Source: Utricularia gibba
Taxonomy: Eukaryota > Streptophyta > Magnoliopsida > Lamiales > Lentibulariaceae
Assembly: GCA_002189035.1 (NCBI GenBank)
Contig: CM007991.1
Coordinates: forward strand, 930,001-994,000
Reading direction: 5' to 3'
Length of the DNA stretch: 64,000 nt
The translations under genes and the position numbers were made by a program. Below, piece after piece: positions 9,824-59,511 of the stretch. Under the pieces are notes generated by a model that saw only the letters and a program-made list of their open reading frames with translations, made no database searches and was not told the origin of the DNA. Every line of letters starts with the position of its first letter. The stretch's first letter is position 1.

Positions 9824-9840
9824 TAATGGTAAAAGAAAAT

Positions 9841-9876
9841 GAAGAAGAAGAAGAAGAAGAAGAAGAAGAAGAAGAA
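9841..9876. repeat. (GAA)12 microsatellite in PME 5' leader
   Basis: Twelve perfect GAA units (TTC on the PME sense strand), followed by four CAG units. It begins 18 bp upstream of the PME start codon, so it should be transcribed as a pyrimidine-rich leader. It should be length-polymorphic between individuals. Confidence 0.9.
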
Positions 9877-37015: not shown

Positions 37016-38773
37016 ATGGCCGGATCTTCCCCATCACCGCGGCGGCTTGTCTCTTCACTCATACACGCTCTCTTCTTCCGCATCGATCCGTTCTTCTTGG
37101 AGCTAAGCTATTTTCTGCTCCTCTCCGTCGTCGGCATCCTCCCTTTCAAGATCTTCAAACTCCGAAATGACACGCCGTTTCCCGTGTCCAACTTAGACCT
37201 CTGGTTCACTTCCGTGTCCAGCGTCACGGTGTCGAGTATGGATGCGGTTGAAATGCAAGCATTTTCAAACATACAGCTTGTGTGTATGACGGTCATGATG
37301 TTCGTTGGAGGGGAAGTTTACTTCTCTTTTCTGCGTTTACGTCTTTACTTGATCAAGATAAAGATGGTTGAAGAAAAAATGACGGCACAGATTGAGGTTG
37401 CAGATCTGCCCGAAAGCGACCACAGTGTCGCCGGGGAAGTTGTCGGAGTAGGAAGGGAAACGATGGAAGAGGAGGAAGAAAGGTTTAAGGTGAAATGCTT
37501 AAGGGTTTTGTCGTGGCTGGTGTTGTGCTACTTGCTGGTCATTCATGTCTTGGGCTTCGTATTCGTCCTGCTCTACGTGAGACTCACCAAGAGTGCACAC
37601 GATGTGCTGAAAGTACGAGGTTTGGTGTCGGAAACTTTCTCGATTTTCACTGTGGTTTCAACATTCTCCAATTGCGGATTCATTCCGACCAACGAGAACA
37701 TGGTGGTTTTTAGTCAGAACTCGGGTCTGTTACTTCTTCTGATTGCTCAGGTCAGATTCTTTTCTTTTTTTTTTCTGTCGGCATCATTAAGACAAGCATT
37801 AATATCTATCTGGAACGAATTCCTCAGGTTCTAATGGGGAACACACTGTACCCTGTCTGTCTGCGATACTTCATCTGGGCTCTCGAGAAGCTATCACACA
37901 AACCCGAACTTACGTACTTGTTGAATAACCCTAAAAAAGTGGGATACGATCATCTCTTCTCACGCGTGCGCTGCTCCTATCTTGCCATCACCGTCATCTC
38001 CTTCATCGTTCTTCAGTTGGTCGTCTTCTTTTCGTTTAACTGGAACTACCAGAGTGGGCTTAACCCGTTTCAGAAGATAGTTGGAGCTCTGTTCCAAATT
38101 GTGAATGCACGACACACCGGAGAAAACATCGTCGATCTCACCTCGCTGTCGTTAGCTTTGGTGACCATTTTCGTCGTCATGATGTGAGTTTCTACCCTTT
38201 TCCCTTCTCATGGTTAACCAGAACTTCTAACCATTTCTATTCATTCAGGTATCTTCCACCTTATACGTCATTTCTACCTCCAGAGGTGGCTGAAGCAGAA
38301 ATCGAAGCGAGTTCAGAAAAGACTGTATCAGAGAAGAAGAAGCGCTTCCCAAATTGGAACAACATCTTTTTCTCCCCACTCACACATCTCACCATCTTCG
38401 TCGTTCTCATCAGCATGACCGAGAGGCATCACATCATAAACGATCCTCTTAACTTCAACCTTCTCTCCATCATCGTCGAAGTCGTAAGGTTAACCGCTGT
38501 TTCTTCTCCTGGTTCAATCTCTAAAAAACATTCCATTTGTTATTCGCTACAACAATCGCTTTTGGGTATTGCAGTGCATCTGGCAATGTAGGGTTTACAA
38601 TGGGATACAGCTGCGAGCTGCAGATCAAGCCTGAGAGCCACTGCATAGATCCATTTTATGGGTTTGTGGGAAGATGGACAAATGGTGGAAAATTCTTGCT
38701 GATCATGGTAATGTTTTACGGGAAGATCAAGAAGTTCAACTCAAGAGGAGGTAGCGCTTGGATACTGGCGTAG
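37016..38773 (+). CDS. HKT1: HKT-type sodium transporter, copy 1 (class I)
   Basis: Trk/HKT Na+ transporter of the plasma membrane; class I members retrieve Na+ from xylem. Four exons, 37016-37750, 37828-38183, 38249-38488 and 38575-38773, give 509 aa. Four membrane-pore-membrane units are visible. Pore 1 TVSSMDAVEM has Ser at the selectivity position, the class I hallmark; pore 2 STFSNCGFIPTNEN, pore 3 NARHTGENIVDL and pore 4 SASGNVGFTMGYSC have Gly. In pore 4 the usual Tyr before Gly is Ser. The exon 3 donor is taken as GTTAACC, because the earlier GTAAGG leaves the wrong phase. A 77-bp intron after LLLIAQ is absent from copy 2. An acidic loop (residues about 120-150) follows the first unit. 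Intact. Confidence 0.95.
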
Positions 38774-41636
38774 CTACGTTCTCCATGCAACAAACAGCAC
38801 TTTGATCCTGAGGGTTTTTGGGTCTAAAACAGGACAAAATCGAAACGATGACGATGAATCCTGTAATATTGTATATGAGGTAGTCTTGCAAAATGTGATG
38901 TAATAGTTGTACACCCAAAGTCAACAGGTGCTCTAATAGAATGCCCTAGTAATTTTAATTTTTTACTGTCTTCAATATTTTTTTATTACCACAAGTAAAT
39001 TTTCCATAGTCAAGTGACAATCAATAGAGTCAAAGTGCGTGTGAATATTCAAAAACAAAAAAAAAAAAAATTTTCACATAAATTAATATTTTATTTACAG
39101 TAAAAACATTTCTAAATAAATGTAATTTCTCGAATAGACAGTTTGTAGTTTTGAATTCTATTTGTTTGATGTCATTTAGAGTAAGTATAAAAAAATTAAA
39201 AAAACAATTTCCACACTTACAAAAAAGCACGATTTCTAGTGCAATTTTTTATTAATCTCGACGCCGCAAAAGGACTTGAGTATAATTTAGAGGCTCAATT
39301 TTCTTACTGTAGTTAAAGTTAATTCAACTGGGTGATTAAAATAGAACATTTACTCAGATGAATTAAGGGTCATTAAGCCTAATCACCCCCAAGGTCTCCG
39401 AGGTCCTCCTGTGTATTATTATTAGCTTCACACCTCAATAATCCCCTAAGGGGTCTTCCGCGTGAACTTAGCACAAAAAATTAGCAATTTTCTTAATTTC
39501 AACCTTACATTATACGCATGTAATTATTTTCATACGTGTCGCATGTCAACCTTGATCTGGTGCCATTTTTGCTACTAGGAAACCATTGATTCCACCTGAT
39601 GAGCACTATACCCATAACCCTACCATAATATTTGAATCTGGCTACGTACATGATTTTAAAAAATGATCGAAAACTTGATACGATACGCATAATCGATGCT
39701 CGTGATTCGACAAGACTCGGTCTTGTAAATATTTTTAACCTAATGTAGCCACTAAGAGTGACACTAGACACTCCCATATGTAGTAGAGGTGTTCCCCCCC
39801 GTGGTTTACTTAAAAGCGTATTGTTGAGTAATTTAGGAGGTGTTTCCTGTGTTAATAGTGTACGACTGCACGCCAACCCTACGTACTTAGTGGTGATTAG
39901 GGCATACAAGTTGTATAAAATAAGGTGGATTAGGGTTTGTGTACACGTACGGGAGAGATCGTGTGGTCGTGATAGCCTCCAATTTTATTCTTCTTTTGGA
40001 ACCAACTTTCCGATTTTATAATAAAAGATCGAATTTTTTGTATTTTTTTATATAAATATTTCGTTTTAGACAATATTCAGTAATACATAATTAGATACTC
40101 TGAAAATTCTATGTTGAAAATGTATGTACAAATCTTTTCTTCTAAATCTACTTAATATTTTTTTTAATCTATGCCAAAAATACATTAATAGTATCTTCCT
40201 TGGTTCAATACATTCAAACTCCACATTAATGATTTCAAAGAATGCATCGGGACAAGAGAATTCTATGGTGGGATTAGAAGTCAATGAGTATGGACGAATG
40301 CTAGGGGTTTGGAATTCCAAATTCTACTCCATGTGCGATTTGGATGCAACATTTGCATTTGAAGTGAATTTGAATTTAAGTAGTGTTTTGAAAAATTTTT
40401 GAAATTTATTTTTACGTTTCAAAATTATTTTTTAAAAAATATAAATAAGAATTAAAAGTAACTAATTTCTTATTTTTAAAAAAATAAATTTTGTAATATA
40501 ATTTTAAAAGTGTTTTTGATAGAATTATTTTTATAATTAAAATTGTTATGAAACAAAATTATTTTTATTTTTGAAAAAAAATAGTTTTTAAAAATTTTTT
40601 AGAACACTTTCTTAGTCAATTTGGTTTTCATTTTCGAAAACTAATTTTCAAAAGATGTTTTTAATAAAATAGAACAAGTTATCTATAACTTTTAAAATAT
40701 GTAAAATAATTTTAGATCTCTATTTTGTTAGGTTGAAACATTGATAATAAAACAGTTTTTGAATACTTAGGATTAAAAAATAGCTAGAGTTTTATAAAAA
40801 TAATGACAAATCCGTACGCCACAATACTGAAATTACTATTTTGAGCATGGCTCAATTGGGAAAACCAGTTGGGTAGATGTATGGATCACAATCTGCCAAG
40901 TCAAATTATACCACTTGAGGATCGCCGTTTTAAATGAAAGGCTACGTGCCGGGTAATTATTTGAAGTTACTGTTCAATTTTGTGTAATTATTTGGAAGTT
41001 ACTGTAAACAGAAAGTCAACAGCTGCTAATGCTAGAGGTTTACCGTGGTTCCCGTTCCGGTTCCGTTATAGGCCTTGGGTGTTCGTACACTTCCGATTTT
41101 GACATATTTGAAACTATTAGTTTGAAACCGCGAACAGTCGATTCAATTTAAAATATTCAATTATAGATATTCATAACTATTGTTACACCTAGGCAGCACA
41201 TCGTTTACAATTATGGATATTTCATATACTCATATTGATTTCTAAAGATGTTTAGAATTGAACACTCATAATGACTTGTTAAAAGTGTTTAGAAATTGTT
41301 TTGTAAATTAGAGATTCATTATCATGCATCCACAACGACATAGTGGATGTCTGAAAAACATATCATTCATGTAAACAATGGCCATCTGGTTCCGATTTTG
41401 GTTCCGGTTCAAAATCAAAACCATTGTATTCGATTTTGATTTCAATTTGGTTCAAGTTTTCGAAATCTGATTCCGAACCAAAACCGGAACCATCTTTTAC
41501 GGTGAACCACGATTTATGAATCGACAGTTCATTAAAACCGTGCGATTCCAAACCTAAACGGTTTCAGTTCCAATCAAGATTTCTAATACATCCATGGTGT
41601 TGATGGAAAAGTTGGTCGGTTCTATCCGTGGCATTC
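38774..41636. other. Intergenic region after HKT-1
   Basis: AT-rich, with short frames of no recognisable family. A G/C-richer patch at 39370-39480 and 39750-39990 is unexplained. Contains the GGTTCCGG repeat region listed separately. Confidence 0.5.
41040..41580. repeat. GGTTCCGGTTC / GAACCGGAACC repeat patch, hAT-like
   Basis: Direct and inverted copies of GGTTCCGGTT-like words cluster here: CCCGTTCCGGTTCCG near 41048, GGTTCCGATTTTGGTTCCGG near 41388, and ACCAAAACCGGAACC near 41477. Such words are typical of the subterminal regions of nonautonomous hAT-type elements in plants. No transposase remnant and no clear target-site duplication could be fixed. Confidence 0.4.
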
Positions 41637-41745
41637 AAACTACTCGTGTTTATTCGCCTGAGCAACTGTATCCCCTTAGTTCGGTATCCCCAATTGCATC
41701 ATATGATCATCCACATGTCCAAAACTTTTCACATCCATGATCAGA
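41637..41745 (-). pseudogene. Relic of an HKT last exon and its acceptor intron
   Basis: The plus-strand stretch ACTCGTGTTTATTCG... GAGCAACTGTATCCC matches the HKT-2 last exon at 45245-45285 nearly base for base, and the following TGATCATCCACATGTCC resembles the intron before that exon. On the minus strand it encodes the GYSC segment after pore 4. Only about 110 bp remain, so it is a dead fragment. It lies 1.1 kb upstream of FUT-A, as HKT-2 lies upstream of FUT-B. Confidence 0.75.
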
Positions 41746-42786
41746 CAGTGTACACGAGTGTTTTAAAAATTATAATTCAATTGCAATTAAATCATTTATG
41801 ACAACGATTGTGTTAAATTTGGATCGTTTTAAAATAAAAAATAAATCACGATTTAATTACGATTTAAATGAACCCGAGATTAGAAATTCAAATCTGATCT
41901 CATAGCATCAAACATAATCCATAGTAGATTGAGCCCCAAAAAAACTCGAACAGCCCATTTCAAAAACTGGTTCCTGTTAGTAGCCCCTCTCCATATTTAG
42001 TGAGCCCAAGTAACTGAAAGCCCAATCCAATTTCAACGCAATGAACGAAAAACCCTAGATAGCAAGAGGTGATAGTGAAAAGAAAACGAGAGCATTAAGT
42101 GTTATCATATTTCAATTGAATAAAAAAATTATGTTTAATCTTTTAAGGATTTTTTTAGTATTGAAAAAATTAAAATATTGTACCATGAAGCGTTTTTTGA
42201 ACATTTTAAAAATATTAGATATTTTGAAATAAGAAAAAAAAACGAATTCTCGAACTATATAACATACTTTTCAATCAGCTGCACTAATACGATAGTATGC
42301 TTTAATGTATATCGTATTATATTGAAGTATTATATATTCAATAAATATTTCAATATGAAAAATATTTGAGTACACATACGTGTATGAATTCATTTATAAG
42401 GCGGGGTACAGCGGAGTTAGATGTTTGACTCCACAATTTAAAAATGTTTTTAATAAATAAAAATCCATTTTCGAATATAAAATTCATCGCCCCATGCCCC
42501 GGTCACACCCCTAAAAAAACAAAGTCAACCCCTCGAGGCCATCATCACATCTATTCCATTGGAATGATACCTACACGTCTTTATTTGATTCCCTTAGCCA
42601 CCGTAGCCGCCCGTGGAATTATCCAACATTACGCGTCATTGACATAAAATAAAATAAAATAAAAAGATAAATAAAGTGAGGTTAATTATTTTAATCATCA
42701 AGATTAGGCCATACAGCAACCATGTAAGAAGAATGTTACCCTTAACATAGGTGCATTTCGGAGGTCAATTTAGGACATAATCCCCA

Positions 42787-42795
42787 TTATAAATA
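42787..42795 (+). promoter_or_regulatory. TATA box of FUT-A
   Basis: TTATAAATA about 70 bp before the ATG at 42860, conserved at the same place in FUT-B (49463-49472) and FUT-C (52142-52150). Confidence 0.7.
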
Positions 42796-42859
42796 CGCAT
42801 CTTCGGACACGACACCAACATATGTGAATAGAAAAAAGAAAACAAGTAGCGGAAGATTC

Positions 42860-44454
42860 ATGTACATGGACGTAAAGCAGGCATTCCACTGTAACACTGC
42901 ATCCAGGCTGGTACTTGCAGTAGCAGTTGGGCTTGTCCTCTTCGTGATGAGCCTGTCGTTCATCTTCAACGCCACGGGGGCGTGGAAGGGGGGCTCCCTC
43001 GCTCTGATTACAAGCGCATGCAAGAATCCGATGACGCCATTTTCTGGGGTGGATTAGATCAGAGTTCTTGTCATAGCAGGTATGACTCCATGCTGCATAA
43101 GCCGCTACTCGGGACGCGAAAACCGTCTTCGTATTTGGTTTCCAAGTTACGGGCGTACGAGGCTCGGCACAAGATGTGTGCTCCGTATACGGCTTCGTAT
43201 AACGTGTCGGTAGACGCGCTCAAGAGCAGCGTGTCTGGGAATGTGGAGTGCAAGTATGTGGTATGGCTTCCTAGTGATGGTTTGGGGAATAGAGTGATTA
43301 GCCTCGCGTCTACGTTTCTGTACGCTCTTCTCACGGATCGAGTGCTGCTGGTTCATCCGAAAGACGGCATCTCGAGTCTCTTCTGCGAACCCTTTCCGGC
43401 GGGATCGTGGCTGCTTCCCATGGAGTTCCCTTTGATGCATCGGATCCATAGGTTTAAAAAGGAATCGAAGGAGAGTTTCGGTCATTTGGTGAGGGACGGC
43501 GTACTCGGCGGTAATGCGACGTCCCCGGTGGCGCAGCCCTATGCATACATCTACTTGTATCCGAACTACGATGATCATGACAAGCGATTCTTCTGCGACG
43601 AGGATCATTCGGATGTCCAAGACGTGCCGTGGCTGTTCTTGATGTCCGATTTGTACTTCGCGCCGTCGTTCTTCTCCATATCGAGCTTTCGAGAAGAGCT
43701 ACACAAAATCTTCCCAGACAAAGAAACGGTGTTTTATTTGCTTGCACGGTACTTGTTCCATCCCACAAATGAGGTTTGGGGGCTTGTAAGGAGATTCTAC
43801 GATGCTTATTTGTCGGAGGCCGACGTGACCGTCGGAATCCAGATTCGGATCCTTCACTTTGAGAAGCCCCCATTTCAAGACGTCCTAAACGACATCATCT
43901 CATGCACCACAAATCAAAACTTACTCCCACCAGTTGATAAGCAAAAGCAGCAAAACAGGACCTTATCCAACACGAAGAAGAAAAGGAAAATCGTCGCACT
44001 TTTGACTTCTTTGAGCTCCGACTACTTCAAAGAGCTTCAAAAGATGTACTGGGAGTACGCTACTACGACCGGAGAAATCGTCGCGATCCACCAACCGAGC
44101 TTCGAAGGGCGCCAAGCTACCGGGAACCTAAATCATGATCAAAAGGCGTTGGCTGAGATGTATCTGCTTAGTCTGACGGATAGTTTGGTAACGAGCGCGA
44201 CATCAACTTTTGGGTATGTGGCTCAAGGTCTTGGCGGGCTAATGCCATGGATGATCCTCAAGTCCAAAGACGACTCCGGCCGTCCTCAACCGTGCCGGCG
44301 AGTTTTATCAATGGAGCCATGCTACCTTACACCTCCCAACTATGACTGTAAAACGAGACAGGCAAAGGATGCAAATGAGACTGAACCTCATCTCAGACGA
44401 TGTGTGGATGGGACTCTCATGGGCATTAAGTTGGTGAACAGTCAAACAAAGTAA
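42860..44454 (+). CDS. Xyloglucan-type galactoside 2-alpha-L-fucosyltransferase, copy A
   Basis: Golgi type II membrane enzyme of GT37 that adds fucose to cell-wall galactose side chains. Residues 1-45 give a short cytosolic tail and membrane anchor (LVLAVAVGLVLFVMSLSFIF). The catalytic domain follows with SSCHSRYDSML, WLPSDGLGNRVISLASTFLY, VLLVHPKDG, LFCEPFPAGSWLLP, ADVTVGIQIR and SATSTFGYVAQGLGGLMPWM. The anchor frame and catalytic frame do not connect: after AWKGG the anchor frame runs to a stop, while the catalytic frame enters at the G-run 42988-42993. Seven G instead of six would join them. Without that base an ATG-initiated catalytic frame would start at MQESDDAIFW, soluble. Copy A has one codon more than copy B after QIR. 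No intron. Confidence 0.9.
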
Positions 44455-45106
44455 TGTAAAGAATCTGTAGCTCAATGACCCTTAGATCTAAGAGTTGAAA
44501 ATATACTTTCACGAATCAATTTTGTAGAAAAAGTTGTATTGATATGTGTTTATAGAGTCAAAATTTGAGTCATTTTTAAAAAGTAATTATTCGTATATTT
44601 TTTTATCATATATTACGATCAATTTTTCACATATAACATGGTTATTTTTTAGGATAATTAATTTTCAAATTCATCCACGATTTGGCATACAATTGGTTGT
44701 GTAGGTTACCGTTGGGTATTGAATCCGCTGCTCTTGTCTTGGACTTCGTGGGCTTGACTACATTACTTCTTATTTGGGCCTGGTAGGTGGATGGGTATAA
44801 ACCCTTTTATTAATCTTCGGCCCAGCCTCTTGTCTAACCCTTAATTGTGGGAACCTTCCCTGTTCTTCTTCTTCCTCTTCCCTTCCCTTCGTGCGGGTAA
44901 TTCCAGCAATGTCGAGACAGCCATCCCAGGTTTAAGTAGATTGGACCAGAATTGCCTCATCAGTTTTTTTTATCAACAAGTAATTGGTTTTTGTTTTCTA
45001 CATTTTGGCAATGACAATCTTGAAGTTCTAACATTTTCATCTTGTTAAATACAAAAGGAATATAAGTGTGCAATTGAAATTGGGTGTGTGTTCTGTACAC
45101 AGGTAG

Positions 45107-46722
45107 CTAGTTCAATCTCCATGCTCTGCCGCTGTTGTACCCGTACTTCTTCATCTTCCCGAAGAACATCACAAGAATGAGTAGGAATTTTCCACCTTGA
45201 CTCCACTTTCCGGCCAGTCCGTACCATCCATCGACGCAGGGGCTGCTCGTGTTTATTCGGTTCGAGCAACTGTATCCCAAGCTTAGTCCCACATTCCCAT
45301 ATGCACTGCATGATCATTGATATGTTTGTCAATTTCACATCTACAGAATACATCAAGTTTGGATGTTGAATCTCACCTCACGACTTCAAACGTAATGGAG
45401 AGTAGGTTGAAGTTAATGGGGTCCTCTTTGATCTTCTCCCTCTCAGTTATGCAAATGAGCATGACAAAAATTGCTAGGTATGTGAGGTTTGAGAAGAGAA
45501 GGTTTTTCAGCCATGGCCGCCTCTCTTCTTCTTCTTTCATGGCTTCTTCTTGATCATCAATAGGCATGTATGAAGTATATGGTGGCAAGTACCTGCAAAA
45601 GATATTTAATTTTCAGTTGTGTTGGATTTGATTAAAAGGAAGCTGATTGATCCATCACAATGACTCACATCATGAAGATGGAAAGCACCAGAAAGGCTAC
45701 AGAAACCATGGAAAGATCAACCACGTTCTCCCCAGAGTGCCTTATGTTCATCACTTGAAACAATGAGGCCACAAACTTCTGATGATTATTGAGGCCGCTA
45801 AGGACATCGGAATGCCATTCAGACAATATGAACAGCAAGAGCTGCAACAGAATGAACCCCAGAACGGTGACTCCCAAGTAAAAACACTGGATGCTGGAAA
45901 GAAGATGATCGTATCCGAATTCCCTCGTATTCTTCAACAAGTACACGAATTCTGACTTTTTGGTCCTTTTCTCGAGAACCCATATGAGAAAACGAAGGCA
46001 CAGAGGGAACAACGTGTTTCCCATTAGAATCTGAGGGATCAGAAGAAGCTGCAGGCCTGAATTTTTGATGAAAACGGTCAAGTCTTCATTGATTGGAACG
46101 AATCCACAGTTGGTGAAAGTAGAGACGCTTGTGAAAAAAGCAAATGTTTCCATGTTCAAGTGTTTGCTCCTCAAAAGCTGACTCACACTTTGCTGCGCAT
46201 TCGCATAGATCAAGAGGCAGAGGAATCCCAAGAAGTTCACAACCAGAAGATACCCTGAAACCGTCCAAATCATTACTCGTAAGCACTTCCTCTTAATCCC
46301 CTGTTCTTCATCAGCCGATTTCACTACTTCCCTTGCTCAAAATCAGGAAAGACAGTACTTTTCCTAGCGTTACTCATCTTAACGTATTGTACACACATTC
46401 TAAGTAAGGAGACGAACAGTTCCCCTCCACCAAACATCATGATCGTCATGAAGACGAGTTGGATGTTCGAGAAAACCTCCATATTCACAGTCGACATGCT
46501 CGAAACGGTGACGGTCGAGACCGAGGTGAAGAAGAGATCCATGGTTGTTAATTTGAATCCATCTCTGAGCTTGAAGATCTTGAACGGGAGGACGCCAACC
46601 AAAGAGAGAATGATGAAGTACCCCAGTTCTTGAATGAACGGATTCGTGTAGAAGACCAAAATATGAACAATACAGACGAAGAAGCTACCCAGAGAGCGCA
46701 CACACGAAGCAAGACTCTTCAT
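45107..46722 (-). CDS. HKT1: HKT-type sodium transporter, copy 2 (class I), with one-base frameshift
   Basis: Second Na+ transporter of the cluster, convergent with copy 1. Three exons, 45669-46722, 45377-45592 and 45107-45305. Pore 1 TVSSMSTVNMEVFSN keeps the class I Ser; pore 2 STFTNCGFVPINED, pore 3 NIRHSGENVVDL and pore 4 SAYGNVGLSLGYSC are canonical. Intron 1 of copy 1 is missing; LLLIPQILMGNTLF reads through. The frame breaks in the cytosolic loop at about 46328-46336: one frame ends PDFEQGK-stop, the next continues REVVKSADEEQG. One added base makes exon 1 1055 nt with the required phase 2, giving 489 aa. The loop is variable in the family, so this could be a real lesion or a base-call error. 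Confidence 0.9.
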
Positions 46723-46781
46723 TTTCGGCTGTTTTCAGCTCTGTCCAATGAGATGGAGCAACAGAGCCAGTGGCACTCTGC

Positions 46782-46788
46782 TTATATA
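46782..46788 (-). promoter_or_regulatory. TATA box of HKT-2
   Basis: TATATAA on the minus strand 60 bp before the start codon at 46722. Confidence 0.65.
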
Positions 46789-48423
46789 GATGCAGCTCAG
46801 AGAGAGTGAAGTGTGCCTCCCTTTCGATGTTCATAAATGCACTGATTTGATCAAGTCAAACGAATCAAAAAATCCCCAGCAAACGTACGGAAGGCACACA
46901 AAGCACCAATCAGACACCCCAGCTGAGATCCTGGTCGTAGATGACGTGTTATGCTCAATTTGGGATCCTCGTGATAAAATCCAAAATTGTATTCCTCATC
47001 TCAAAAAAATTTACGGTTGTGATTCTCTGCATTTTGCAGCACATTAATTATTTTTATTTAATTTTTAATTGCAAAAAAATTCAAATATATTCTCAATACC
47101 TGAAATAAATATTATTTTTCATATTTGACATTTATCTAAATCTTATAAAAAAACATTCCCTAAAAAAATATTGCAACATAAATCTTAAAAAGACAAAAAA
47201 ACAGTGGTACTTATTCTGTACACGTGGCGATGATGATTGGGATGCTTCGCGGTCGTAACTGACGAATGAAGACAGTTGTAGAAAATAGAAAATTAATTAA
47301 ATGCCAAGATTTAGGCGTGAGAAGATCCTTTGAATCTCCTTCACTAACCCCTTTGACCTATTAATTGTACGTGGAGTTGAATTTAGTAAAAAAATATATA
47401 CAATTTATTATTATTATTATATATATATATATAAGTTGGTTTAATTTATTTTTCAGGTCATTACTAAAAATTAATTTATATCATAATCCAAAAAGGAAGA
47501 GGGCCAGAATGTAATTAATACGAGAATTGGGAGTAGTCACAGGTTTTTATATAAATATTATCAACGAAAATAAAAAAAGTTGTAAAGATCATACCATATG
47601 TCGTACTCTGTATGATTTGGAATCGAAGAAATAAAAAAACGTTTCAAATAAATTAGATGATTTTCAGCAAAATTATTCGACAAAGTACAATTTATACAAG
47701 CCATCAATAGATATGATTACGAAGAATCAATGTTTTTGATGAGCTAAGTTGGCATGAATGGAAAACTAATTCATTGCATACCTTAAGAAATTATATAAGA
47801 TAAGTTTTTTTCTCAAATTTTGTTAGTAAGATATATCCAATTTTATTTAAAAAGAATTATTAATCTAAAAAAAAGGAAGAGGGCCACGTGTGCATGGGCT
47901 TCCCTTGTTTGAATATAACACGTTTATTGTAAGTGTCCAACACAAGGAAGTGATGCCCATTTGCCAACCAATGGCATGCGTCTAATTCCGCATTTAATGA
48001 TCAAGGTGATGACTCATCCATCCAACTCAGCACGGCATGTGTACCATTTGCCTAAATCCTTATGTAGCATTGGCCTTTGCTTAGAGAACATGATCACACA
48101 TTTGATGCCTATGAGGAATAACATGTAGAATAGTGACTCCATTTTCCTCCAAAATCACTTTCACCAACTTAGAAGTTAAAAGTGTACACAAGTCATTTGT
48201 TTGGTAATAACATTATTAAAAATATATTTTCTACAGTAGAAGGTTTTGTTTGGTATGTTTTTATGAAAAAACACTTTTCGATAAATGATTTGAATAAAAG
48301 TTATTCATGTTTGGTACTTTAAATTACTAAACTTTGGTATATGTGAAGAATGTTGAATTGAAGAAAGAAAAAAAAAAAAGAAACTAGTTATAGGGGACGA
48401 TATTTGAAGACCATCAACTTAAT
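46789..48423. other. Intergenic region, HKT-2 to duplicated block
   Basis: AT-rich HKT-2 promoter side. (AT)n patches near 47420. CACGTG cores near 47222 and 47885 are possible bZIP/bHLH sites. No coding signal. Confidence 0.5.
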
Positions 48424-48645
48424 CATTTTTTAAGGTTAGTGATTGGTGGTGAGAGGCCCATTTTTGGTAGGGCACGGTCCTATTATATTGGGCCTATTTT
48501 TGCTTGTAATGGGTATGGCCCAATTGCTTATATTTGGTGACAGAGAGAGGCCCATTAAATGGATGAAACACCACACCGGGAGGTTGGATTGTTTATTGTG
48601 CAGAGAATATTCTTCTTCTATGAGGGGTTCATTCAGCATTATTTT
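48424..48645 (+). repeat. Mosaic duplicate: complex I gene promoter joined to SAUR tail
   Basis: Bases 48424-48581 match 53619-53777 (GGTTAGTGATT, TATTATATTGGGCC, AGAGGCCCATTAAATGGATG), the promoter of the small complex I gene. Bases 48579-48640 match 56825-56880 (AGGTTGGATTGTTTNTTGTG, CAGAGAATANTCTTCTTCT), the end of the SAUR coding region. The two parts meet at a GGGAG/GGAG microhomology. It encodes only a SAUR tail (RLDCLLCREYSSS) with no start, so it is a dead remnant of a larger duplicated segment. Confidence 0.85.
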
Positions 48646-49535
48646 GTATTAAATAACATATATTGAATCTTTATTTAATGAGAAATAATATTTAAGAATA
48701 ATGACTATTTATCAAGATAATATTTTTATTTATTTCTTGATACATGTTGAAATACAATTCTATGTTTCAAATGCATGTAACTAATGTTATGATGTTAAAA
48801 TACAATTCTATCCCTCAATTTATCTATTTTTTTATTAAAAAATTCATTTTTAATCTTAATATTTCATAAAAACTATCTAAGATTTTGTAATATTTTATAC
48901 AATATTAAAAATTTCCTCATATTTTATACTATTAAAATATGTGAAATATTTTGTAATATGTGCAGTATGGATGTGGAACAGTTAATTTATAAAGGCAAGG
49001 CACAGTTTAGATTCCACGATAATTCACATGTATAGATTCATCTTTTAGGCTAGGCACAATCCAGTTACATTTTAAACAAAAGATGACCTTCTTCATGTTA
49101 TCAGGATTTTAAAAAGATATTTTTTAAAAAAAATCAAAGTTACTAATTCAAAATGCCTTTTTTAATATAAAATTCATTGCACACGTGCCTCGTAACACCC
49201 CTAAGAAAACAAAGTCAACCCCTTTCGCCACGAAATCATATGTATTCTCTTGGAATTGTACACATGCATCATTATTTGATTCCCTTAGCCGCTGTAGCCG
49301 CCGAGTTTTCCCCCATTACACGTCATTGACATAAAATAAAATATTCTAAAAATGAGGTTAATTATTTTAGGCATCTAGATTTGGCCACATTTCAACCATA
49401 TACGAGGCATGCTACCCCTGCCACAGATGCATTTCAGAGGTCAAATTAGGACATAATCCCCAATATAAATATGCATCTTCGGACGTGACATCAACATATG
49501 TGAATACAAAAAAGAAAAGAAATAGCGGCGGATTC

Positions 49536-51091
49536 ATGAAGGCATTCCACTGTACCACTGCATCCAAGCTGATACTTGCAGTAGCGGTTGGGCTTGTCTT
49601 CTTCGTGATCAGCTTATCGTTCATCTTCAACCCCACGGGGGTGTGGCCGGGGGGCTCCTCCGCTCCGATGACAAGCGCATGCAAGAATCCGATGAGAGTT
49701 CTTGTCATAGCAGGTATGATTCCATGCTGCATAAGCCGCTCCTCACGACGCGAAAACCCTCGTCGTATTTTGTTTCCAAGTTACGGGAGTACGAGGCTCG
49801 ACACAAGATGTGTGCTCCGTATACGGCTTCGTATAACCTGTCGGTAGACGCCCTCAAGAGCAACATGTCCGGGAATGTGGAGTGCAAGTACGTGGTATGG
49901 CTTCCTAGGGATGGATTGGGGAATAGAGTGATTAGTATCGCGTCTACGTTTCTGTACGCTCTTCTCACGGATCGAGTGCTGCTGCTTCATCCCAGAGACG
50001 CCATTTCGAGTCTCTTCTGCGAACCCTTTCCGGCGGGATCTTGGCTGCTTCCCTCGGACTTCCCTTTGATGGGTCGGATCGATGGTTTGAACAAGGAATC
50101 GAAGGAGAGTTTCGGTTATTTGGTGAGGAACGGCATCTTCGGCGGTAATGAGACGTCGCCGGTGCCGCAGCCGCCGCCCTATGTATACATCCACTTGTAT
50201 CCCGGCTACGATGATTATGACAAACGGTTCTATTGCGACGAGGACCATGCGAATGTCCGAGACGTGCCGTGGCTGTTCTTGATGTCCGATTTGTACTTCG
50301 CGCCGTCGTTCTTCTCCATGTCGAGCTTTCGAGAAGAGCTACACAAAATCTTCCCAGACAAAGAAACGGTCTTCTATCTGCTTGCACGTTACTTGTTCCA
50401 TCCCACAAATGAGGTTTGGGGTCTTGTAAGGAGATTCTACGACGCTTATTTGTCGGAGGCCGACGTGACGGTCGGAATCCAGATTCGAGTTCACTTTGAG
50501 AACCCCCCATTTCAAGACGTGCTAAACGAGATCATTGCATGCACCACCAACCAAAGCTTACTCCCAACAGTTGGTAACCAAAAGCAGCAACAGTTTACGT
50601 TATCCAACACAAACAAGAAAAGGAAAATTGTTGCGCTTTTGACTTCGCTGAGCTCCGACTACTTCAAAGAGCTTAAAAAAATGTACTGGGAGTACGCTAC
50701 TACCACCGGAGAAACCGTTGCGATCCATCAACCGAGCTTCGAAGAGCACCAAGCCACCGGGAATCTAAATCATGATCAAAGGGCGTTGGCTGAGATATAT
50801 CTGCTTAGTTTGACGGATAGTTTGGTAACGAGTGCAACATCGACTTTTGGGTATGTGGCTCAGGGTCTTGGCGGGCTAACGCCATGGATGATCATCAAGA
50901 GGAAAGACCAGGCGGGCCGTCCTCAGCCGTGCCGGCGAGTTCTGTCGATGGAGCCATGCTACCTTACGCCTCCCAACTATGACTGTAAGACGAGACAGGC
51001 AAGGGATGCAAGTGAGACTGAACCTCATCTCAGACGATGTGTTGATGGAACTCTCATGGGCATTAAGTTGGTGAACAGTCAAACAAAATAA
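49536..51091 (+). CDS. Xyloglucan-type galactoside 2-alpha-L-fucosyltransferase, copy B
   Basis: Close paralogue of copy A (GT37, Golgi). The anchor begins MKAFHCTTASKLILAVAVGL; the MYMDVKQ start of copy A is lost through a small deletion. All catalytic landmarks are present (GLGNRVISIASTFLY, LFCEPFPAGSWLLP, ADVTVGIQIRVHF, STFGYVAQGLGG). An in-frame 27-nt deletion relative to copy A removes the FWGGLDQ region before SSCHSRYDS. As in copies A and C, the anchor and catalytic frames are split at a six-G run (49649-49654), with seven needed to join them. The enzyme is otherwise full length and ends LVNSQTK like copy A. Expression from its own conserved TATA promoter is likely. Confidence 0.9.
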
Positions 51092-51351
51092 TGTAATGAC
51101 TCTGTAGCCTGAGGTTTAACAGTTGAAAAGATATTTTAACGAATCAATTTTGCAGAATAATTGTATTGTTGAAATTATTGTGCATATATAGATATAATCT
51201 ATAAATAAAATTAATTAAAAAAATTATAAAAATACCATTTGACAAATAATTTTAAAACATGTGCTATTCAACTAATTGATTTTTAACAGAATTTTATTTG
51301 ATTTGGTAGTGTCACAGAAACATGTGCGGTCTTGCAGGTTACCGTTGGGTA

Positions 51352-51485
51352 TTGAATGGGCTTCTCTTGTCTTGGACTTCGTGGGCTTGACTACATTGCA
51401 TCTTATCTGGGCCTGATGAGTGAGCTTCTCTTGTTTTGGACTTCATGGGCTTGACTACATTGCCCTTATCTGGGCCTGATGGGTG
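51352..51485. repeat. Two-unit tandem repeat, period about 63 bp
   Basis: GCTTCTCTTGTCTTGGACTT...GGGCTTGACTACATTG...TTATCTGGGCCTGATG appears twice head to tail in the 3' flank of FUT-B, and only once at the matching place in unit A (44725-44795). It is a local duplication younger than the FUT duplication. Confidence 0.85.
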
Positions 51486-52213
51486 GATGGGTATAAACCC
51501 TTTTATTAATCTTCGGCCCAGCCTCTTGTCTAGCCATTTATTGCTGGAATCTTCCCTGTTCTTCTTCCTCTTCCCTTCGTGCGGGTAATTCCAGCAATGT
51601 CCCGACAGCCATCCGACGTAATATTTTTTAATATTAATTTCTCATAAAAATTACCTAACATTTGGTAATATTTTTTATAATATTACAAAATTTCTCATAT
51701 TTTATACTACTAAAAAATGTGAAATATTTGTAATATTTGTAACATTTTATCACAATGTAGATTCCACCATGATTCACATGCATGTGTAGATTCGTTTTTT
51801 AGGATTTTAAAAAGAGGTTTTTTTTAAATAATCAAAGTAAATAAATAAAAATGCATTTTTTAAAATAAAATTCAACAAAGTCCACCCTTTGGCCACGTAA
51901 TCATATGTATTCTATTGGAATGGTGCCGACACGTCTTTATTTTATTCCCTTAGCCACCGTAGCCGCCCGAGGAATTATCCCACATTACGCGTCATTGACA
52001 TAAAATAAAATAAAATAAATAGATAAATAAGTGAGGTTAATAATTTTAATCATCTAGATTTGGCCATACAGCAACCATGTAAGATGAATGTTACCCTTAC
52101 CATAGGTGCATTTCGGAGGTCAATTTAGGACATAATCCCCATTATAAATACGCATCTTCGGACACGACATCAACATATGTGAATAGAAAAAGAAAACAAG
52201 TAGCGGAGGATTC

Positions 52214-53446
52214 ATGTACATGGACGTAAAGCAGGCATTCCACTCTACCACTGCATCCAAGCTGATATTTGCAGTAGCAATTGGGCTTGTCCTCTTCGTG
52301 ATGAGCCTATCGTTCATCTTCAACGCCACGGGGGCGTGGAAGGGGGGCTCCTCCGCTCCGACGACAAGCGGATGCAAGAATCCGATGACGCCATTTTCTG
52401 GGGTGGATTCGATCAGAGTTCTTGTCGTAGCAGGTATGATTCCGTGCTGCATAAGCCGCTACTCAGGATACGAAAACCGTCTTCGTATTTGGTTTCCAAA
52501 TTAGGGGCGTATGAGGCTCGGCACAAGATGTGTGCTCCCAATACGGCTTCGTATTTGATTTATTATATATTTGATTATTTTATTTTTATTTTCTAATATG
52601 GGATTGTATATTCTAACACCTGACTTCAAGTCAAATTGGTCTTTGATCTGGTTAAAACTTGTTTTTTTTTGTGATTGTAGATAGTGTTTGGATCATAGAT
52701 CGATCTAATTTTTTGTCGTCTAAAGCCAATATATTTCCTTATTTTTTTTTGTTTTTTTTAAACCAGAACTCAAATTAGAACGAAACTCATCTTGGCCACC
52801 CAACCATGCCGCGAGGCAAACGTTTTTATACCATGTTGAAATTCAAGATCAAATGGATCGTGCGAGTGCACATATAAAGGTTAAGTACACAAGAAATCTG
52901 AATCATATTACAAAAGATTAGGTCCAATCGATTATTAGGTCAAATCATTCTAATTTCGTTTTTCAACGTGTAATTGTGTACAATGTAGGATTGTGTAATT
53001 GTGGTATGGCTTCCGAGTGATGGTTTGGGGAATAGAGTGATTAGTATCGCGTCTACGTTCCTGTACGCTCTTCTCACGGATCGAGTGCTGCTGGTTCATC
53101 CGAGAGACGCCATCTCCAGTCTCTTCTGCGAACCCTTTCCGGCGGGATCGTGGCTACTTCCCATGGATTTCCCTTTGATGGGTCGGATCGATGGTTTGAA
53201 CAAGGAATCGAAGGAGAGTTTCGGTTATTTGGTGAGGAACGGCATATTTGGATGATCCTCATGTCCAAAGACGACTCCGGCCGTCCTCGGCCGTGCCGGT
53301 GAGTTCTGTCGATGGAGCCATGCTACCATGCACCGGCCGACTACGATTGTAAGACGAGACAGGCAAAGGATGCAAGTGAGACTGAACCTCATCTGAGACG
53401 ATGTGTTGATGGGACTGTCAGAAGCATTAAGTTGGTGAACAGTTAA
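52214..53446 (+). pseudogene. Fucosyltransferase pseudogene, copy C
   Basis: The 5' part is nearly identical to copy A (MYMDVKQAFH, anchor, AWKGG, six-G run 52342-52347, FWGGFDQSSCRSRYDS). At 52555 about 57 bp of coding sequence are replaced by about 445 bp of unrelated AT-rich sequence that carries stops. Homology resumes at 53001 (WLPSDGLGNRVISIAST) and runs to NGIFG. About 0.74 kb holding the rest of the catalytic domain is then missing (junction near 53248), and the C-terminal tail (SMEPCY, CKTRQAKDASETEPHLRRC) follows. It cannot encode a working enzyme. Confidence 0.93.
52555..53000. other. Foreign insert in the FUT-C pseudogene
   Basis: About 445 bp, AT-rich, not present in copies A or B. 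Near the right border GTGTAATTGTG occurs twice (52968-52978 and 52993-53003). Phrases such as ACCATGTTGAAATTCAAGATC look like plant LTR or repeat sequence, but no terminal repeats or target duplication are clear. It could be a transposon fragment or filler DNA from break repair. Confidence 0.55.
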
Positions 53447-53849
53447 ACAAAGTAATTGGTTTTGTTTTCACTTTGTTTTATACATCTTGGCAAGGTTGAT
53501 CCACAGTGTATTCTTTAGTAATGAAGGATGTAATGAATTTAGATTGATTATGAATGAGATAAACTAATAATTTATATAGATAGATTTTTATTAATCTTAC
53601 ATAAGATCTTTTACTTAAATCACTTTTTAAGGTTAGTGATTTGTAGTGAGAGGTCCATCTGTTTTAGGGCACAAGCACAACTCTATTATATTGGGCCAAA
53701 TTTGGTTTATAATGGAAATGGCCCACTTGATGGTATCTGGTTACAGGGAGAGGCCCATTAAATGGATGAAATATCACGCCGGGAGCTCCTCTGGTTCCAG
53801 ACGAGCGATACAGAGCTCAGTAGGGTGATACGACGCGAGAAATCCAAAG

Positions 53850-54591
53850 ATGGGAGGAGGAATGGAGACCCACAAGAATCGATTCATTGAGGACTGGGCA
53901 ACGAATAGGGAGAATCTGGAGGCCAATTTCCGCTGGACGCGCCGTAATCTCGCACTCGTGGGGATTTTTGGGATCGTCGTTCCGATCATCGTTTATAAAG
54001 GCATCGTCAAGGAATTTGTGAGTTTTAGATTCTAATTTGTGGTTATCGATTGAATTCGTGTTGTAATTGTTCGGTTTCTTCTGTTACTGTGGTTAGGTCA
54101 TAGTTCGCTTCACTATATATCCATTAGTTTCAGGGTTTTTTTTTTTTTTTTTTTCTGTGAATACTGATGTTTTAACTCGAATGTTGCCTTTTTTGTGAAC
54201 AATTGTTCGAAATTGCTAGAAATCAAGTGAACCCTAATGCGTTTTGCGCCTTTCTACGATTCTGGTTGTGAAGCTGAGTTTTGCTTTTTTGGGAAGTAAT
54301 AGCAGGTCTCATTTACCATCCGGTGGATTTTTTGCATGCGTTCTTTCCTTGCTATTTCCTCCGTGACCTATGATAAATCTTGTGAACTTGAAGCTTAGGG
54401 GTATTGAGGCTTCTCTGTTGTTACAGATGATTGGTTTCTATGTCATGCATAAAAACATTGAAGTTGTGGTCTTTCAATGGATTCCAGTTCCGAAGATTTT
54501 TCTGTTCTAAAGTTTCACCATTCATATACTTTTTTTGCAGCACATGCAGGATGATGATGCAGGGAGACCTCGTCGGAAATTCTTCTTCTAG
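53850..54591 (+). CDS. Small mitochondrial complex I subunit (B15/NDUFB4-like)
   Basis: Accessory subunit of NADH dehydrogenase in the inner membrane. Two exons, 53850-54017 and 54541-54591, give 72 aa. MGGGMETHKNRFIEDWATNR is a hydrophilic N-terminus, LALVGIFGIVVPIIVYKGIV is a single membrane span, and HMQDDDAGRPRRKFFF is the matrix- or space-facing tail. Size and sequence match the plant protein I know from Arabidopsis At2g31490. The 523-bp intron holds a long T-run (54131-54153). A copy of its promoter sits at 48424-48581. Confidence 0.85.
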
Positions 54592-56493
54592 GAATCTTTC
54601 ATTTCGTTATCTCCATGTCCAAACGCGAAGCACCTTCTGAATGTGATTGTGGTAAAACCAACTTCTGCAGTGTTTTGATCATTCTAGACCTTGAGCTGTG
54701 CGTGTAAGAACTCAAGCAAATAATTCATACTCTGATGAAAGATACATGCCCTCTTGTTACAAGCATGGTTGCATTGTTGATCTACTGCACAGTTGATCTT
54801 TGATACCATTCCAAAAGAGATCCCATTTCAATAAAGATTTTTCGAAATATTACACACAGTGAGTTATCAGAGACAGGACAAGGTGGTGTCCAAATGCTCA
54901 GGCGCGCGCTTTATGCTCAAGAAATGCTGCACCTGGGAAGAAATGAGCTTCCTTTTTACAGTTATAAACACACCTCTTTTTGTTACCCAACTTGGGGTGT
55001 GTCAACCCAGTGTGTTACACTCCCTGAGGGAACAATGAAAAGGTGGGATGAATCATACCAAGGCTTAGCATTGCCACTTGGAACAAGATATGGTGTTTGC
55101 AATTCAGCCTTAGCTTCCGAATCTGATCCAAAAATGATGAATCCGAATCAAGCTTGGGTTTTTACTCATGCTTGAGTAACTATAATTTCACACACAAATT
55201 GACACTGCAACTGCGACAGCGTTCTGAATTCAATACCATTGAAACCCTCCCTATAAGCTACTGATGCTTGGTGTAAGGTTTTGAATGGATCGTAGAGATA
55301 TATGCTCGTCGTCTACAGTACAATCCAAATGGCGCAGCGGTTTTGTTCCAATTGGATGCCCCTCGAGAACTACAGCGAATCGGGATGAAGACGAATTAGA
55401 CACGTAAAATTCATCAGGCGAAGCCCAGTCTTCCCTCCGGACCATCCTACTCCTTCAAGTACAACACAGGACAATTAATATAATATGTATATGCATATTA
55501 TTTATTGATGGGTTTACTGGATTACGATTTAAAAAAGTTTACTTTATTGGAATTTAGATAAATATGGCGCAAGTAAATTAAATGTTTATATGGTATTTAG
55601 TTGATAGTCAAAAATCTGGAATTTAATAAAAGAACAGAGGTATATAGATTTAAATGAACATGTATCTATCCATTAAACAAAATCATCTCAATCTAGAACT
55701 TATTTAAACTCTAGAATTAAATACAATATAGTTTATAACTCTTATATCATATCAACTCTTTAATTCCATCAACGTATAATCGTAATTGAATTGTTTTATA
55801 TTATCCATTTTGAATACTTAATTATTGTAATTTTACGTTTTTTTGGATAAAAGATCTTGTATAAGATTAGAAAAAGTATATCTATGTAAATTCTACCTCT
55901 ACCTTATGTTTGAATTAAGATTTAATATTTTTTTGTAAAATTAAGAAAACCTTTACAATCTAGAACTTATTTAAACTCTAGAATTAAATACAATATAGTT
56001 TATAGCTATTATATCGACTCTTTTTAATTTTGATTGAATTATTTTGTATTATCTGTTTTATACACTCATTTTCACGATTTTACGTTTTTTCTCTTTTACG
56101 AAAATGTAAGATTATATAAGGTTTATCTATATAAATTCTTCTTATAGCCCATGTTTGAATTACGATTTACTATTTTTTTTATAAACATATGATTCAATCA
56201 CGATTTTAACACACGGTTAGATGCATGAATCTGTAGTCGTCACTCGGCTTCACCAAAGCTAGTCTACATTATTGACCAAATCTGGATTTGAGATTCTTAC
56301 GCTAATCTCACGTCAAACAGCATAATTTTTGGTGTACAGGCTTACAGACGACTACGTACGTGTCTCTTCCAAAAGTCAAGCGTCAAACGAGTAATTAGCA
56401 GCAGCCCACACGGCGGCTTTTGCTATAAATACAACCAACGGCGGTTGCATTCACCCAGACCCACACATACGTACGAGTTTCGCCGGCGCCACC
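54592..56493. other. Intergenic region before SAUR
   Basis: Two modest open frames (54894-55175 plus strand, 55251-55445 minus strand) have no recognised family. From 55450 on the sequence is AT-rich and includes a two-copy repeat. The SAUR promoter, with TATA (CTATAAATA, 56423-56431), is at the right end. Confidence 0.5.
55690..56205. repeat. Two-copy tandem repeat, period about 266 bp
   Basis: AATCTAGAACTTATTTAAAC followed by TCTAGAATTAAATACAATAT opens both copies (from 55690 and 55957). The two first 60 bp are almost identical, and the rest is recognisable but diverged (TTTTACGTTTTTT, TATGTTTGAATTA/CATGTTTGAATTA). A decayed tandem duplication of unknown origin. Confidence 0.8.
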
Positions 56494-56916
56494 ATGATGA
56501 TCAGCGGGATCGTACACCTCAAGCAGGCCGTTCAGCGGTGGAAGGCCCGCACCGGAATCCGGTCTGGTTCCGTGGCCATCTACGTCGGACCGGAGCGTAT
56601 TCGCTTCGTCATCCCCACCCGGTTTCTCAACTACCCGGTATTCGCGGGTTTGCTGGAGATGGCGAAGGAGGAGTACGGATTTTCCACGACCGGCGGGCTG
56701 GCGCTGCCATGCGAGCGGGCTGTTTTCGAGGGGATCCTGCGGCTGTTGGAGGCGGATGAGGAGAAATTTGGTCAGCTGAAGCTGCAGGAACTCATGGAGA
56801 TGATGGAAGATGCCTTGGGATTCAGGAGGTTGGATTGTTTCTTGTGCAGAGAATACTCTTCTTCTCATGGAGTGTTCAATCCCAGTCTCAGTCTCGCCCA
56901 AAACACTAGGGTTTGA
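56494..56916 (+). CDS. SAUR-family auxin-responsive protein
   Basis: Small intronless gene, 140 aa. The SAUR domain spans residues about 25-95 (SVAIYVGPERIRFVIPTRFL, NYPVFAGLLEMAKEEYGF, GGLALPCERAVFEGILRLLE). Family members are known to inhibit PP2C.D phosphatases and so promote cell expansion; this one's role is not known. Start at the first of two Met codons (MMISG), about 65 bp after a TATA box. The C-terminal extension (RRLDCFLCREYSSSHGVF) is longer than in short SAURs. Its last 60 bp are duplicated at 48579-48640. Confidence 0.93.
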   Translation: MMISGIVHLKQAVQRWKARTGIRSGSVAIYVGPERIRFVIPTRFLNYPVFAGLLEMAKEEYGFSTTGGLALPCERAVFEGILRLLEADEEKFGQLKLQELMEMMEDALGFRRLDCFLCREYSSSHGVFNPSLSLAQNTRV

Positions 56917-58378: not shown

Positions 58379-59402
58379 TCAAGCATTGTAGCACTCAGCA
58401 GGGGAGCCCTGTGGGAAGCGCTTGGGATCAGTGCAGTAGTTGTAAATCATATAATTCCGCTGCACCCATCTGAGCCTCTGCTGACCCCAACTGTCTAAGG
58501 ATTGTGAGAACCATGAATTCTGTGAGCACGAATTGGAATTTGTGCACGACAAGGCGTTGAAGTTCCTGAAGGAGGCTGTGAATGGTGCCTGGCTCCAGTC
58601 CGTCTTAATAAGTCCACCTCTCGTCGCCCAGTCCTCCGCGTTCCACAGGCTCGAGTAAATTCGCATTGGCTGGTTTGTTGGAAACTGCCCTCCCCTTGAT
58701 CGCAGGTTCTTGAACTGCCTGATTGGAGTCCCATCTACCAAGAATCTGTTTCATGCAAGTTAAGCTGTCAGCTCAAACATCTCATCGGAGTATGCTTACT
58801 TTCACGATTCCAACAGTGCGAGTTTCGTACATGATTTGCTGAGGATTCCATAAGATGGAGTAGCTGTGGAAGTCTGCAGTCGGATCAAACCAGAGGTGAA
58901 ACTGCTGCTCCCTTCCGCCTTTGCCTTGTGTAAATACATTTGTATGCAGAGTGTAAGGCTGCCCACTGAGATTCCCCAGGAATTCGAAGTCGATCTCGTC
59001 GTGATTCGCCCCCAACGATGAAAACTGCAGAGGAAAGCAAGCATGGTACGTTAATCAAGGAAGGCACAAGCTCAAGTAAATGTTATCAAGACCACTGAGC
59101 AGTTTTTTTACTTACGTAGTAAGCAGTAACCGTGCCTGCAGAGTTGCCAGGGACGAGCTTTATCTGCATGTCAATCTTCCCATACAAGTACTCATTCTTG
59201 GACTGGAATCCTGATCCTGATGCTCTGTCCAACGACAACGTTAGAAGGCTTCCGCTGTTGAGAATCTGCGCGCGCCCATTCCCCAAGTAATGTCGAAGTT
59301 TTGGTGGAAATCTGAGGCGAGAGCCGCCGGTGAAAAGCCCCACAGAATGAGAAGCAGAAAGACAGACAAACTGCGGCAAGACGCTGATGGTAGGAGAATC
59401 AT
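58379..59402 (-). CDS. Xyloglucan endotransglucosylase/hydrolase (XTH) with one-base frameshift
   Basis: Secreted GH16 enzyme that cuts and rejoins wall xyloglucan. Three exons, 59116-59402, 58831-59024 and 58379-58745. The signal peptide is [20 protein letters not shown]. The catalytic motif [14 protein letters not shown] is in exon 2. The C-terminal XET domain has [16 protein letters not shown] and paired Cys residues ([17 protein letters not shown]). The exon 2 donor is GTACGAAAC, giving [12 protein letters not shown]. The C-run 59281-59284 is one base short: [11 protein letters not shown] must continue [13 protein letters not shown], but the written frame runs to a stop. One more base makes exon 1 exactly 96 codons and the protein 282 aa. 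A TATA box lies about 100 bp upstream (59502-59511). Confidence 0.92.
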
Positions 59403-59501
59403 CGTCGATCTCCAAGAATTGACCACCGTGGTTGGGCAGGGAGGGTGGGGGAATGAAATGGGGTTTATTTGAATGATGGTCTCAAATATGAATGGACGCT
59501 G

Positions 59502-59511
59502 ATATTTATAG
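59502..59511 (-). promoter_or_regulatory. TATA box of XTH gene
   Basis: CTATAAATAT on the minus strand about 100 bp before the start codon. Confidence 0.6.

Follow-up and report, generated by a model that had tools for sequence, protein, structure and literature searches.

Interleaved HKT and fucosyltransferase genes in Utricularia gibba: an apparent compound tandem-duplication locus

In the bladderwort Utricularia gibba, genes of two unrelated families, HKT transporters and fucosyltransferases (FUTs), are interleaved at one locus. We consider it about 70% probable that this is an ordinary compound tandem-duplication locus, in which the families are linked by position rather than by common function. 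HKT-1 and HKT-2, class I HKT genes that form an old pair, would have been joined by a FUT gene from a lineage-specific FUT radiation, and a later segmental duplication, at a neutral divergence of about 0.2, would have copied this FUT together with an NDUFB4-like gene and a SAUR gene, and possibly HKT-2. The left copies of the latter two neighbours would then have been mostly deleted, leaving a scar at a 4-bp microhomology (48407-48634). A further local duplication, common with FUT-B, would have given rise to FUT-C, subsequently broken by a deletion and a repeat insertion, with gene conversion apparently mixing A-like and B-like stretches within it; the HKT relic would be a probable leftover of an older HKT duplication.

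The window is the 64,000-nucleotide stretch C3:930001-994000, and genome searches covered the 100-Mb assembly (516 contigs). The order and strands given in the initial annotation, HKT-1(+), HKT relic(-), FUT-A(+), HKT-2(-), FUT-B(+) and FUT-C pseudogene(+), are confirmed, with Pfam TrkH and XG_FTase matches (Table 1). The HKT-1/HKT-2 pair is oriented tail-to-tail, with the FUT family interleaved. Three further wall-related genes lie within the window, namely, a pectinesterase-like gene (8115-9916), an LRX-type extensin (17368-19526) and a xyloglucan endotransglucosylase (58379-59618); their presence is probably a coincidence.

Table 1 Features of the interleaved HKT-FUT locus (positions within the window)
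Feature	Position	Strand	Description
HKT-1	37016..38773	+	class I HKT; Pfam TrkH match
HKT relic	41615..41735	-	spans the border of the last intron and last exon; nearest to HKT-2
FUT-A	42860..44454	+	Pfam XG_FTase match
3' flank common to FUT-A and FUT-B, FUT-A copy	44720..44931		corresponds to 51417-51619 by FUT-B
HKT-2	45107..46722	-	class I HKT, 3 exons; Pfam TrkH match
NDUFB4-like promoter scrap	48407..48582	+	corresponds to 53603-53785
SAUR 3' coding-end scrap	48579..48634	+	corresponds to 56825-56881
FUT-B	49536..51091	+	Pfam XG_FTase match
FUT-C pseudogene with 5' flank	51625..53456	+	A-like/B-like mosaic; large deletion; repeat insertion
Dispersed, locally tandem repeat inside FUT-C	52557..52997		unit of ~385 bp
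NDUFB4-like small gene, intact	53603..54591	+	parent of the promoter scrap
SAUR (Auxin_inducible) ORF, intact	56395..56916	+	parent of the second scrap

Both HKT-1 and HKT-2 belong to class I: TrkH/HKT homology spans the whole protein, and the Ser-Gly-Gly-Gly filter, with Ser in the first pore loop and Gly in the other three, is present in each (TVSSM, STFSNCGF, ARHTGEN and ASGNVGF in HKT-1; TVSSM, STFTNCGF, IRHSGEN and AYGNVGL in HKT-2). In fold family, filter and the usual places of the last two introns, they resemble class I HKTs such as AtHKT1;1 and DmHKT1, from which HKT-1 differs by one extra intron and HKT-2 by a single frameshift near 46330, which is located inside the variable cytosolic linker and was overlooked in the initial annotation. 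The frame of HKT-1 is intact across its four exons (37016-37750, 37828-38183, 38249-38488 and 38575-38773), its nearest solved structure is AtHKT1 (8w9n; E = 4e-130), and its product is predicted, as for other class I HKTs, to carry Na+ over the plasma membrane. The two genes form their own clade (support 100/99). Their branches are long (0.54-0.61 per site), dN is 0.34 and dS is saturated at 3.4; they are an ancient pair, far older than the FUT array. Tandem growth is the rule for HKT families in multi-copy plants, and the locus resembles in this respect the tandem HKT clusters of eudicots such as grapevine, strawberry and Prunus (PMC12703196); in U. gibba, however, the two HKT genes are arranged tail-to-tail and are interspersed with genes of an unrelated family.

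The extra intron of HKT-1 (37751..37827, + strand, 77 bp) is inserted at a Q/V junction and is flanked by the direct repeat CTCAGGT, the signature expected of intron gain at a repaired break. It is missing from the other five HKT genes compared (HKT-2 and those on C304, C4 and C480), and its sequence is unique genome-wide. Four-exon HKTs are already known, for example, VvHKT3a2 (PMC10773568). One of the HKT genes on C304 (~3435717-3437489) has TQSGM in the first pore loop, with Gly replacing the class I Ser, and nevertheless groups by sequence with the class I genes of the same genome; it also carries a stop-containing insertion, possibly a further new intron. Separately, the mitochondrial COX1 (C515) reads ...LLPPSLLLLCCSALVEVGSG..., with two contiguous cysteines, a change documented in Utricularia and in some Genlisea (PMC3141634), and its intron contains an open frame that continues from the first exon and resembles a LAGLIDADG homing endonuclease.

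FUT-A and FUT-B match the XG_FTase profile over the catalytic length (545 bits, profile positions 34-475 of 475, and 513 bits, positions 56-475 of 475, respectively), as do the plant GT37 alpha-1,2-fucosyltransferases AtFUT1 (xyloglucan) and AtFUT4 (arabinogalactan protein). Both retain the catalytic Arg motif of these enzymes (GIQxR), as GIQIR aligned with GIQVR of AtFUT1; this Arg is changed to Lys in 5kx6. By score, FUT-A is closer to AtFUT1 (E = 3e-150) than to AtFUT4 (2e-126). In the tree, however, FUT-A and FUT-B (branches 0.07-0.09) are nested among the FUTs of C98 and C409, a radiation of this genome that is separate from both Arabidopsis enzymes, although support for their placement beside particular C98 genes is only 88/89. 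Falling with neither AtFUT1 nor AtFUT4, they cannot be assigned an acceptor; if the Golgi anchor is truly in frame, they should fucosylate a wall glycan. The large XG_FTase clusters are at C98:198-428 kb and C409:2148-2193 kb (L011-L028), and there are ~13 near-full frames genome-wide, in addition to fragments. Tandem duplicates of U. gibba include wall genes, among them expansins, XTHs, chitinases and beta-galactosidases (PMC9867145), and the FUT array is likewise a small-scale tandem expansion of wall genes, although the passage of that report that bears on these duplicates does not name fucosyltransferases.

The catalytic parts of FUT-A and FUT-B share 87.5% amino acid identity, and dN is low relative to dS (0.06-0.07 and 0.21-0.24, respectively; dN/dS about 0.28-0.32), so that purifying selection acted after the duplication. 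FUT-B carries a 27-nt deletion ahead of SSCHSRYD. The disruption of FUT-C noted in the initial annotation holds, but a frame problem is not limited to that copy: in all three FUTs, as assembled, the N-terminal membrane anchor is off-frame from the catalytic domain, a further difference from AtFUT1 and AtFUT4. In FUT-A, the catalytic frame is open from about 43018, whereas the anchor ATG at 42860 is in a different frame, across a run of six G residues. This run occupies the same place in each copy (42985-43000 in FUT-A, 49650-49665 in FUT-B and 52340-52355 in FUT-C), and a seventh G would restore the frame. Either the lesion is older than the duplications, or the assembly under-called the run three times.

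These frame changes bear on the state of the genes under either duplication history considered below. The cluster could be largely decaying, with the FUT frame change and the HKT-2 frameshift as true lesions and HKT-1 alone fully working, a reading that we treat as tentative and hold less likely than its opposite. It accords with a G6 run that recurs in the same position in three genes, with the break in HKT-2 and with the in-frame anchors of other FUTs of the genome, such as C98_309 and C409_2148. However, the catalytic domains of FUT-A and FUT-B evolve under constraint and keep the Arg motif, and the lesions could be assembly errors, single-base homopolymer errors being common in long-read assemblies.

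FUT-C is a dead copy. It has lost about 745 bp internally (positions 43503 and 44248 of FUT-A are joined as 53246/53249), is interrupted by a ~440-bp dispersed-repeat insertion and also contains stop codons. The repeat has tens of genome-wide matches; many of its copies show 70-81% identity, short tandem arrays are frequent, and one copy is located ~1 kb away from the HKT gene on C480. The further FUT duplication proposed earlier is borne out, FUT-B and FUT-C being local duplicates: the distal upstream region of FUT-B (48847-49049) recurs at 51625-51803 and is missing from FUT-A. Along FUT-C, the informative sites change in long runs, from a proximal promoter that is 95-97% A-like to a late middle part that is 94% B-like, and this mosaic is best read as gene conversion. 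Such conversion among the FUTs blurs dating and may have reset parts of these genes, concealing a common age with the HKT relic.

The HKT relic, placed at 41637-41745 in the initial annotation, is real: a self-alignment does show homology there. In a BLAST comparison, 41640-41718 matches 45243-45325 of HKT-2 at 75% identity (E = 5e-7), and the Smith-Waterman alignment of 41615-41735 with the last intron/last exon border of HKT-2 has z = 11.7; its local score is 42, whereas shuffles average 13.8 (s.d. 2.4; best shuffle 26). Chance similarity was rejected, given that none of the 1000 dinucleotide shuffles reached the observed score. The match is specific to HKT-2, with z of 2.1 for HKT-1 and below 1 for the four HKT genes elsewhere. 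Because the homology spans an intron/exon border, the relic is a genomic copy, and a retro-copy origin was likewise rejected; it is therefore a genuine piece of a former HKT-2-like gene. Its divergence from HKT-2 (K = 0.33, 0.22-0.49) suggests that it probably goes back to an earlier HKT duplication, one that predates the FUT-A/FUT-B event.

A second trace of past rearrangement, missed in the initial annotation, is located between HKT-2 and FUT-B, where copied sequence from an NDUFB4-like promoter runs directly into copied sequence from the 3' coding end of a SAUR gene. The intact parent of the promoter, a small gene that now starts near 53850, downstream of FUT-C, and that we take to be NDUFB4-like, gave no match in a Pfam search. 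The two scraps meet at GGAG, a 4-bp microhomology common to both parents, as expected of a deletion via microhomology end joining. It follows from the scraps that a copy of the genes now 3' of FUT-C once lay between HKT-2 and FUT-B.

The neutral divergence of the promoter scrap from the intact promoter (K = 0.20, 0.13-0.29) equals that of the FUT-A/FUT-B 5' flanks (0.21, 0.16-0.27), and the SAUR scrap gives 0.12 (0.04-0.26) against the intact gene. With the relic more divergent, the FUT-A/FUT-B event more likely took the right-hand neighbours, although the interval for the relic overlaps that for FUT-A/FUT-B and conversion confounds the comparison. One segmental duplication of a FUT with its right-hand neighbours, the relic being older, is accordingly a reading that we hold with moderate confidence, as short alignments and conversion limit it. 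The 3' flanks of FUT-A and FUT-B are heterogeneous (distal K of 0.11, proximal K of 0.36). This common flank looks like the truncated promoter and start of another gene: it has the appearance of a housekeeping-type promoter, includes an ATG and a splice donor (ATGTCGAGACAGCCATCCCAG/GTTTAAG), and then breaks off; a DNA search for the parent gene with fragment 44690-45140 returned the FUT-A and FUT-B copies alone.

The order of the genes can be divided equally well as [HKT FUT][HKT FUT] or as HKT [FUT HKT][FUT ...]. The initial annotation took the first division: tandem duplication of a unit of a minus-strand HKT and a plus-strand FUT, with loss of one HKT copy, of which the relic is left, and a further FUT duplication, here from FUT-B to FUT-C. 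The homology and orientation parts of this proposal stand, as the relic is nearest to HKT-2 and has the same orientation ahead of the following FUT; FUT-A and FUT-B also share both flanks, and the proximal 3' flank divergence would suit the age of the relic. Continuity of the unit does not hold: the two HKT-to-FUT gaps (relic to FUT-A and HKT-2 to FUT-B) have nothing in common beyond the proximal FUT 5' flank, although decay of old non-coding sequence could conceal homology. The relic, by point estimate, predates the FUT-A/FUT-B split, and the [HKT FUT] unit, which accounts for the relic, can explain the intervening scrap only by supposing either a rearrangement or one more FUT that has since been lost. 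We therefore regard this history as unlikely, at perhaps one chance in a few. The second division, in which FUT-HKT-NDUFB4-SAUR is the repeated unit, puts the scrap after HKT-2 with no lost FUT and is weakly favoured; its cost is that the right-hand unit must have lost its HKT without trace. Intergenic gaps were searched for hidden FUT or HKT remains and yielded none; no HKT trace lies in the interval from FUT-B to the NDUFB4-like gene, so that HKT-2 is only a possible component of the duplicated block.

The linked expansion of the two families suggested in the initial annotation is seen at this locus only. The genome has at least six HKT genes, and no FUT was found near the other HKT loci (C304, with two genes, C4 and C480), nor any HKT near the large FUT clusters on C98 and C409; a search of 20 kb around each other HKT locus for flanking genes in common, as a paralogous outgroup, also found none. 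Being confined to a single locus, with an HKT pair far older than the FUT array and one dead copy in each family, the linkage is probably incidental, and hitchhiking, offered earlier as the alternative, becomes the likelier reading. Adaptive co-expansion, in which extra HKT and FUT copies were retained jointly because Na+ handling and wall fucosylation serve the same organ, such as trap glands, seems to us highly improbable. Both families are indeed multi-copy and under evident purifying selection, wall genes are known among the tandem duplicates of U. gibba (PMC9867145), and in the Venus flytrap prey sodium is taken up through an HKT1-type channel (PMC9434158; PMC5797450); this is set against the restriction to one locus, the dead HKT and FUT copies, and the frame changes in HKT-2 and in all FUT N-termini. 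The narrower proposal, that a carnivorous rootless plant kept the interleaved copies for their common use in trap glands (in the uptake of prey Na+ and in a specialised wall), with linkage aiding joint regulation, is less credible still.

A salt framing of the cluster is ill-suited to a freshwater bladderwort; given the flytrap channel, carnivory fits better than salinity as a context for the HKT genes, and may be taken as a lead, not a result. No description of interleaved HKT and FUT genes was found in a literature search, and the positional coincidence requires no new principle. The locus is a clean small example of unrelated neighbours expanding jointly by segmental duplication, with a scar that can be dated, gene conversion and one copy killed by a repeat, all within a compact genome. 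Useful leads adjoin the cluster, in the form of the HKT genes and the large private FUT radiation of a rootless carnivorous plant.
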